Part shown: piece by piece, positions 14,188-36,045 of the stretch
Numbering within the stretch: the stretch's first letter is position 1
Layout of the letters: each line of letters opens with the position of its first letter
Assembly (NCBI RefSeq): GCF_003522965.1
Contig: NZ_CP031513.1
Location: 1,426,001-1,490,000, forward strand
From: Bombilactobacillus bombi
GTDB taxonomy: Bacteria; Bacillota; Bacilli; Lactobacillales; Lactobacillaceae
DNA length: 64,000 nt
Direction of reading: 5' to 3'
Translations under genes and position numbers: made by a program
The notes under the pieces: generated by a model
What the model was told of the DNA's origin: nothing
What the model saw: the letters and a program-made list of their open reading frames with translations, nothing else
Databases searched by the model: none

Positions 14188-14249
14188 AAATATATCAAAT
14201 ATATTTGATATATTTAATCATAGTATAGCAACTCTTTTTTCAATGTCAA
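14188..14249 (-). promoter_or_regulatory. promoter with 28-bp perfect palindrome for the XRE gene
   Basis: On the minus strand TTGACA (14244-14249), a 16-nt spacer and TATACT (14222-14227) form a strong promoter. Immediately downstream 14188-14215 is a perfect 28-bp palindrome with half AAATATATCAAATA. Its place over the transcript start and RBS suits a dimeric autorepressor; a further half-site (TCAAATATA) lies at 14247-14255. Confidence 0.72.
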
Positions 14250-24061: not shown

Positions 24062-24110
24062 AAGGCAAACACTTTTTGTGATACGCACAAAAGTTGTTTG
24101 CCTTTCTTCT
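24062..24110 (+). terminator. terminator of lacLM
   Basis: AAGGCAAACACTTTTTGTG (24062-24080) pairs with CACAAAAGTTGTTTGCCTT (24086-24104) with few mismatches; TTCTTCTT follows. Confidence 0.7.
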
Positions 24111-24150: not shown

Positions 24151-24468
24151 TTAGTCTTTCCAAATTTCTTTAGCGCGGTTGAAAGTCGACCAAGCATGGG
24201 GCCAACCAGTATAAAAAGCTAACTGGGTAATTTCTTCCACAATTTCATCTTTGGTGATGCCATTTTGTTTACCTAATGTTAAATGGGCTTCAATTTGTTC
24301 GGTATTACCTGTCGCAATTAGCGCAGCTATTGTAATCATGGAACGATCATGCGCAGACAATTTATTTTCACGACTCCAGACTTCACCAAACAACACGTCA
24401 TCATTAAATGCTGCAAATTGTGGCGCAAAGTCGCCTAAATTATCGCGACCCGCAGTTTGTTTTTTCAT
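24151..24468 (-). CDS. carboxymuconolactone decarboxylase (AhpD-like) family protein
   Basis: 105 residues, a single CMD domain. HDRSMITIAALIATGNTEQIEAH and GITKDEIVEEITQLAFYTGWP are characteristic; the latter segment is very close to the PcaC-like gamma-carboxymuconolactone decarboxylase family. The CxxC pair of true AhpD peroxidase partners is absent, so a peroxidase role is not supported. In lactobacilli such genes are often near aldo/keto reductases and MerR regulators, as here. GGAGGT is the RBS. Transcribed from the MerR-type promoter at 24499-24529. Confidence 0.88.
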   Translation of the reverse strand: MKKQTAGRDNLGDFAPQFAAFNDDVLFGEVWSRENKLSAHDRSMITIAALIATGNTEQIEAHLTLGKQNGITKDEIVEEITQLAFYTGWPHAWSTFNRAKEIWKD

Positions 24469-24498: not shown

Positions 24499-24529
24499 AG
24501 CATAAGACTTCGAGTATACTCGAAGTCAA
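24499..24529 (-). promoter_or_regulatory. MerR-type promoter with 19-bp spacer and perfect dyad
   Basis: Minus-strand -35 TTGACT (24524-24529) and -10 TATGCT (24499-24504) are separated by 19 bp, longer than normal. A perfect 22-bp palindrome, half GACTTCGAGTA, spans 24506-24527 between them. This is the hallmark of promoters switched on by DNA-twisting MerR-family activators. The regulator gene is not in this window. Confidence 0.78.
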
Positions 24530-24548: not shown

Positions 24549-25397
24549 ATGAAAACTGTAACGATTAACCATCAAGTACTTCCTGCCATTGGCATTGGAA
24601 CTTGGCATTTAGGTGATCAGCCCCAACAACAAGCCAAGGAGATTGCAGCTATCCGTTTAGGAATTGAAATGGGGGCTCAAGTCATTGATACTGCTGAAAT
24701 GTACGGTAATGGCCGCTCCGAACACTTAGTAGCCCAAGCTATTAAACCTTATTCACGCCAAAAGCTTTTTTTAATTTCTAAAGTTTTACCTCAAAACGCT
24801 TCTCATAAAAGAATGGCTCATAGTTTAAAAGCCAGTTTACAAAGATTACAAACTGATTATTTAGATTTATACCTTTATCATTGGCGTGGTCATGTCCCAT
24901 TAGCTGAAACTATTTCAGAATTACAACATTTCCAAGATCAAGGTTCAATTCGTGCTTGGGGAGTGTCGAACTTTGATCTATCTGATATGCAAGAACTTTG
25001 GCAATTACCTCATGGCCCTAATGTGGCTGCTAACGAAGATTTATACAATCTTGGTAGTCGTGGTATTGAATATAGTTTGTTACCTTGGCAACAACAACAC
25101 CATCTTCCCATGATTGCTTACAGTCCTGTTAGCAATGGTGATCAATTAGGTGCCCACCTCACACAACATCCAACGGTTTTACAAATTGCCCAGCAACATC
25201 AAGTGAGTCCTTATCAAATTATGCTTGCTTGGACAATTAGTCACCCTAATATCTTAGCAATTCCTAAAGCTAGTCAACCACAGCATATGCAAGATAATTT
25301 GGCCGCTTTAAATTTAAATCTTTCTGCAGCAGAGCTTGCCGCGCTTGATCAGGCATACCCCGCACCCCAACATAAAGAACCCTTAGACATTTTGTAA
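24549..25397 (+). CDS. aldo/keto reductase
   Basis: 282 residues from ATG 24549, 9 nt after AAAGGA; an ATG three codons earlier directly abuts the RBS. The catalytic tetrad is visible: Asp and Tyr in DTAEMYGNGRSE, Lys in LISKVLPQN and His in LYLYHWRGHVP. The C-terminal ILAIPKASQPQHMQDN binds NADPH. Reduces aldehydes or ketones with NADPH in the cytosol; substrate unknown. It is divergent from the CMD gene and shares its palindromic regulatory region, so the two may answer the same carbonyl or redox stress signal. Confidence 0.92.
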   Translation: MKTVTINHQVLPAIGIGTWHLGDQPQQQAKEIAAIRLGIEMGAQVIDTAEMYGNGRSEHLVAQAIKPYSRQKLFLISKVLPQNASHKRMAHSLKASLQRLQTDYLDLYLYHWRGHVPLAETISELQHFQDQGSIRAWGVSNFDLSDMQELWQLPHGPNVAANEDLYNLGSRGIEYSLLPWQQQHHLPMIAYSPVSNGDQLGAHLTQHPTVLQIAQQHQVSPYQIMLAWTISHPNILAIPKASQPQHMQDNLAALNLNLSAAELAALDQAYPAPQHKEPLDIL

Positions 25398-35325: not shown

Positions 35326-36045
35326 ATGAATAGCTCAGTAAGCGCACAATTAATGGGGGAATTTTTAGGAACAGCAATTTTAATTCTTTTAGGTGATGGT
35401 GTTGTTGCGGGCGTCAATTTAAACAAATCCAAGTCGCAAAATGCTGGGTGGCTGGCTATAACTTTGGGTTGGGGCTTAGCTGTTACTTTCGGCGTTTATT
35501 TAGTAGCTTGGATGAGTCCTGGTCATCTTAATCCAGCAGTTTCTTTGGCGATGGCAATAGCAGGGAAACTTTCTTGGAGTTTGGTGATTCCTTATATGAT
35601 TGCACAGATTTTCGGAGCTCTCGTAGGTGCAGTTTTGGTTTGGCTCACCTATTATCCACATTGGCAACAAACCCAAGATTCCGCTACGATTTTAAGTATC
35701 TTTAGTACCACTCCTGCCATCCGTAATTATGGTGCTAATTTTTTGGCAGAGTTGGTTGGTACTTTCGTTTTAGTTTATGGACTGCTGGCTTTTACCAAGG
35801 GTAATTTTGCCAGTGGATTAAATCCAATTGTGGCTGGTTTACTAATCACTGTTATTGGGATTTCCTTAGGTGGTCCCACGGGTTATGCGATTAATCCCGC
35901 TCGAGATTTAGGTCCTCGAATTGCCCATCAATTATTGCCGATTGCCAATAAAGGCGATTCTGACTGGTCTTACAGCTGGGTTCCAATTTTAGGGCCATTA
36001 GTTGGTGGTATTTTAGCAGCATTATTATTTAATCTTTTAAAATAA
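35326..36045 (+). CDS. glpF: glycerol uptake facilitator
   Basis: 239 residues, six membrane helices plus two half-helices. Both aquaporin motifs are present: GHLNPAVSLAM and GYAINPARDLGPR; Arg after the second NPA and Asp in NPARD mark the glycerol-conducting branch. Passive entry of glycerol before GlpK. Starts 3 nt after glpO and closes the operon. Confidence 0.95.
   Translation: MNSSVSAQLMGEFLGTAILILLGDGVVAGVNLNKSKSQNAGWLAITLGWGLAVTFGVYLVAWMSPGHLNPAVSLAMAIAGKLSWSLVIPYMIAQIFGALVGAVLVWLTYYPHWQQTQDSATILSIFSTTPAIRNYGANFLAELVGTFVLVYGLLAFTKGNFASGLNPIVAGLLITVIGISLGGPTGYAINPARDLGPRIAHQLLPIANKGDSDWSYSWVPILGPLVGGILAALLFNLLK

Follow-up and report, generated by a model that had tools for sequence, protein, structure and literature searches.

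Positions 24499-24529 of the window, a 64-kb stretch of DNA (C1 1426-1490 kb) from a genome of 1,842,084 bases in one contig (C1), carry what looks like a MerR-type promoter, and the locus raises the question of which regulator it would answer to and which of its two neighbours it would serve. The minus strand from 24529 to 24499 reads TTGACT-TCGAGTATACTCGAAGTCT-TATGCT, i.e. a −35 hexamer TTGACT (24524-24529), a 19-bp spacer (24505-24523) and a −10 hexamer TATGCT (24499-24504), and the same pattern with 19-bp spacing recurs in relatives. The promoter coordinates match those of the first-pass annotation, and an inverted-repeat search recovered the perfect 22-bp dyad (24506-24527), with gapless arms GACTTCGAGTA (24506-24516) and TACTCGAAGTC (24517-24527) that are complementary at 11 of 11 positions. 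The dyad lies inside the spacer, the length of which falls in the 19-20 bp range that defines the −35/−10 spacing of MerR-type promoters as described in PMC9909328. On these grounds the segment is supported as a MerR-type promoter, putatively bound by a regulator at the dyad, its predicted MerR-family operator.

Taken by itself, a 22-bp dyad is uncommon but not decisive. In 200 dinucleotide shuffles, gapless perfect dyads of at least 22 bp occurred at a mean of 0.06 per window, with 11 of the 200 having one; the window itself contains two, at 24506-24527 and 14191-14212; the latter is an AT-rich perfect palindrome (TATATCAAATATATTTGATATA). The combined promoter-plus-dyad pattern, allowing up to 3 mismatches, matched once in the window and in none of 100 shuffles, a contrast flattered by the pattern having been modelled on the two sites themselves, i.e. 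the present one and the MerR promoter described below. The copy of the element before a MerR gene is stronger evidence than these shuffle statistics.

As first described, the element separates a CMD-family gene from an aldo/keto reductase (AKR) gene, and both assignments hold by Pfam (PF02627 and PF00248, respectively). The promoter points towards the CMD gene (24151-24468, minus strand; 105 aa; Pfam E 1.2e-19), our predicted target, with 30 nt from the end of the −10 hexamer to its ATG (24468) and a GGAGG ribosome-binding site between. The CMD protein passes the PF02627 gathering score (70.4 against 23 bits) and is not the PcaC (4-carboxymuconolactone decarboxylase) equivalog, scoring 74.2 bits against an NCBIfam cut-off of 155.7. 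CMD peroxidases of the AhpD type carry a redox-active cysteine pair; the 105-aa translation contains zero cysteines. The AKR gene (24549-25397, plus strand) lies on the other side, and at the mirror positions the plus strand reads AAGACT and AGTCAG, so that no MerR-type promoter faces it.

The first-pass annotation found no MerR gene in the 64 kb, and none of the genes matching PF13411 lies within the window. Genome-wide, four such genes score above the cut-off, at C1 388, 534, 1151 and ~1797 kb, and one of them has the same element; a truly missing regulator was therefore rejected. That one is the gene at C1:1150937-1151368 (minus strand), which has its own promoter with a near-copy of the CMD element at C1:1151413-1151439 (TTGACTTCGAGTCGACTCTAAGTAATAAACT at the MerR gene, TTGACTTCGAGTATACTCGAAGTCTTATGCT at the CMD gene). 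Its product has the MerR DNA-binding domain (PF13411, 71 bits; PF00376, 57.7 bits), and a cupin gene follows, making a MerR-cupin pair. With as many as 3 mismatches allowed, a strict pattern built from the −35, the two half-sites and the first bases of the −10 matched only the CMD promoter and this MerR promoter in the whole genome, 299 kb apart, while the reversed control gave 0 matches. The genome search that had been suggested for the dyad and a MerR gene with the same element thus succeeds when the middle and right half are relaxed and fails for the exact 11-mer arm, which occurs nowhere else in the genome. The suggestion that the regulator acts from a distance gains support from the 1151-kb MerR gene and from its relatives, which go together with this CMD family and this element.

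We propose, with considerable confidence, that 24499-24529 is the operator-promoter of the CMD gene and belongs to a small scattered regulon of the 1151-kb MerR, which would also control its own MerR-cupin pair. The proposal draws on the element, the similar copy ahead of the MerR gene, the way the element is conserved along with this MerR clade and the different position of the CMD gene, all of which are read from sequence; from these we infer binding by MerR, activation and a signal. As in the MerR family generally, a dimer would occupy the dyad between the −35 and −10; the 19-bp spacer would hold the hexamers out of register, leaving the CMD gene off or low, and the activated regulator would kink the DNA, realign the hexamers and switch the gene on.

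The remaining MerR genes must be weighed as the real or an additional regulator, above all the NmlR-like gene L005 (C1 ~1796 kb), which adjoins two NmrA-like genes and would make the signal an electrophile. By inspection the AdhR/NmlR sensor position of L005 is still a cysteine; of the three regulators tested, L005 also scores best against NmlR (86 bits), and like the 1151-kb MerR it has a Tyr at position 23 of the recognition helix, which might let it bind similar half-sites. However, the 86 bits fall far under the cut-off of 175, the whole-genome scan placed no strict element near L005, and by eye the intergenic region between it and the divergent NmrA pair lacks the dyad. We consider it improbable that L005 or another MerR takes the place of, or joins, the 1151-kb MerR. 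Another MerR gene accompanies a second CMD-family gene whose element differs: this gene (L003:53-83 and 140-517; C1 ~532.6-533.0 kb) is preceded by a separate element with a 19-bp spacer, TTGACATGGAGCTAACTCCAGCCTTTATATT, which recurs almost unchanged in front of its relatives in B. bombi, B. mellis and B. mellifer, and the MerR gene lies ~0.8 kb beyond it on the opposite strand. The fourth MerR gene precedes a glutamine synthetase-like gene and is presumably GlnR.

The relation between element, regulator and target can be followed through related genomes. Relatives of the 1151-kb MerR and of the CMD protein occur in 7 of 7 genus genomes, our own included. The 19-bp-spacer element stands before CMD in B. 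bombi (G002), where it also precedes MerR and NmrA-cupin; before CMD and then cupin in genome G003; before MerR-CMD in B. apium; and before MerR-cupin-CMD in Apilactobacillus xinyiensis. Genome G004, B. mellis and B. mellifer have no element directly before the CMD gene, and the link between the two is hence not universal in the genus. In G004 the MerR matches are weak (31-34% identity) and the CMD gene sits within an AKR-CMD-cupin run. A close form of the dyad was found in 3 of 60 genomes, including our own, and a looser form in 51 of the 121 genomes of the family; the control matched once, in B. mellifer (G006).

Loci fetched by similarity to an alignment of the 1151-kb MerR give a broader picture. 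Of 211 confirmed, 80 were listed, and each of these 80 has at least one element. Counting up to 3 mismatches to a loose consensus derived from sites already seen, they hold 94 elements (37, 26, 22 and 9 at 0, 1, 2 and 3), most of them in front of MerR, cupin, CMD or NmrA genes; the reversed pattern gave 0 matches in the same loci. CMD genes lie within 69 and cupin genes within 70 of the 80. Adding 30 loci from the looser-form scan gave 118 elements in 110 loci, some of the same species. In the 1.5 kb downstream, CMD is present for 89 of these elements and cupin for 100, compared with 28 and 36, respectively, of 330 random 1.5-kb stretches from the same loci. A third, weaker element in our genome, TTGACTTATAGTTGGCTATAAGTGATAGATT (C1:1833646-1833676; L192:3147-3177), precedes a DUF3737 gene followed by aminotransferase and DUF915 hydrolase genes. 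The DUF3737 gene is a possible further target of the 1151-kb MerR; no DUF3737 gene was found downstream of the 118 elements in relatives.

In the listed loci the spacer is 19 bp long in 63 close matches, 18 bp in 0 and 20 bp in 1, with 11 and 9 putative matches at 17 and 21 bp. This bears on the idea that the dyad acts as an RNA hairpin, serving the AKR gene as a leader or terminator element, and not as a protein-binding site. Folding of the plus strand does give a 9-bp stem closed by a UAUA loop (−16.2 kcal/mol, z −2.96); such folding is, however, expected of any perfect dyad. No U run follows, the terminator scan does not list the dyad, and the element in relatives is tied to the −35 and −10 hexamers at that fixed 19-bp distance, upstream of the start site. 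We give the hairpin almost no credence.

The listed loci also relate the regulator to its half-site. In the 75 of 80 loci with a MerR reading frame passing the ORF filter (L085, L111, L131, L132 and L141 had none and were left out of the residue table), Tyr or Phe at MerR residue 23 accompanies a G beside the half-site AGT in 20 of 21 cases, against 2 of 54 otherwise. On the tree this corresponds to 4 and 5 state changes, and to 1 independent pair on well-supported branches or 4 over all branches. With so few independent changes the correlation is not independent proof, and it does not separate the 1151-kb MerR from L005.

Comparison of gene order suggests how the CMD gene reached its present place. 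In B. bombi (G002) the order lacL, lacM, AKR, MFS, pyrF, pyrE, uraA is intact, and the lacM match ends 185 bases ahead of the AKR start, a gap in which CMD has no match; the CMD gene of that genome follows glpF, with its own element. The glpF gene of the window (35326-36045) has no CMD gene beside it, and in B. mellis AKR, MFS, pyrF, pyrE and uraA are likewise together (neighbourhood genes were named from translations, except those assigned by Pfam). The simplest reading of these arrangements is that this lineage acquired the CMD cistron, promoter included, by insertion between lacM and AKR, with the direction of the move deduced. The regulator would act in trans because the CMD cistron and promoter are placed differently than in the sister species. 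An extended inverted repeat, AGGCAAAC...GTTTGCCT, can be made out by eye at 24063-24104 between the convergent lacM and CMD genes; it is likely a two-way terminator, although the terminator scan made no call there.

If the CMD cistron and promoter have moved, the adjacency of the AKR gene is incidental. Three close AKR orthologues (65-67% identity) all lack the element upstream. Given the direction of the promoter, these element-free orthologues and the B. bombi AKR neighbourhood without CMD, the AKR gene was rejected as main target, and co-control of it is unsupported; it is probably a bystander beside the CMD promoter. Control of both divergent genes, with MerR activating CMD and repressing or gating AKR, has some appeal: the AKR start codon (24549) is only 21 bp beyond the dyad end, B. 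bombi homology upstream of AKR fades near the ribosome-binding site, so that an old AKR promoter may be gone, and a weak promoter might use the TATACT at the dyad centre (24515-24520). By eye, however, no −35 is suitably spaced from that hexamer, the promoter scan reports no promoter at this place, and the orthologues lack the element. We regard dual control as unlikely, though well short of negligible; it is an add-on to regulation of CMD by the 1151-kb MerR, not an alternative to it.

What the 1151-kb MerR might sense is less readily deduced. Its best match among solved structures is NmlR of Haemophilus influenzae (HI_0186; PDB 5d8c, 5d90, 5e01; E 4e-21 over residues 8-120), and it falls below the NCBIfam NmlR cut-off (72 against 175 bits). 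AdhR and NmlR, the nearest characterised regulators, respond to formaldehyde or carbonyls by way of a cysteine. According to a review (PMC4776306), this residue (Cys54 in NmlR, Cys52 in AdhR) is invariant throughout the NmlR clade and is required for the formaldehyde response. Aligned to HI_0186, the 1151-kb MerR has His59 at this position, and its single cysteine is Cys125. Of 75 relatives in the ORF-filtered listed loci, 73 have His at the sensor position and 2 have Cys; 57 of the 75 lack cysteine altogether. With histidine replacing the sensor cysteine of AdhR and NmlR, the regulator probably does not read its signal through thiol chemistry, and that the inducer is a small organic molecule is our guess. 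The carbonyl or redox role first proposed for the regulon remains plausible from the company of the genes, even though the expected sensor residue is missing. More broadly, we tentatively suggest, at a little below even confidence, that a His-for-Cys branch of NmlR/AdhR-like regulators extends across lactobacilli and, provided that its regulon is still one of detoxification (CMD, cupin, NmrA), relies on non-thiol sensing, perhaps of a small organic molecule.

Several known systems provide points of comparison. AdhR (YraB) of Bacillus subtilis, with targets adhA, yraA and yraC, resembles the present case in that a MerR-family regulator induces a CMD-family gene, yraC (PMC4776306), but it needs Cys52 to respond to formaldehyde (PMC4776306), where the 1151-kb MerR has His59; by inspection no adhA-type gene was seen beside the latter. 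NmlR HI_0186 targets adhC-estD, while CMD and cupin are predicted here. The 1151-kb MerR would thus work like the AdhR/NmlR promoter system, yet it lacks the defining feature of the thiol-sensing clade. In L. sakei LS25, CMD, hypothetical, MerR and oxidoreductase genes carry the consecutive numbers LCA_1190 to LCA_1193; a study that lowered the availability of glucose reported them as upregulated and as apparently coordinately regulated (PMC5669474). There CMD and MerR cluster by gene number, whereas our CMD gene lies 299 kb from its candidate regulator; the likeness is one of gene content. Literature searches returned nothing combining CMD, MerR and cupin in Lactobacillus, or CMD, aldo/keto reductase and regulon in lactobacilli, and among the matches listed for Bombilactobacillus and MerR none was on topic by its title or the start of its abstract.

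A CMD promoter whose candidate MerR lies far away is a neat but unexceptional example of a regulon that has come apart. It assigns an orphan promoter to its candidate regulator and illustrates that a MerR operator can be traced from one genome to another when its target gene has moved. In practical terms the benefit is modest: a stress-type regulon of bee-gut lactobacilli can be annotated more accurately. The comparison also brings to notice a largely cysteine-free NmlR-like branch in lactobacilli, within which two MerR relatives from Apilactobacillus (L082 and L094) retain Cys at the sensor position and, set against the His relatives, form a natural pair for comparing thiol and non-thiol sensing.
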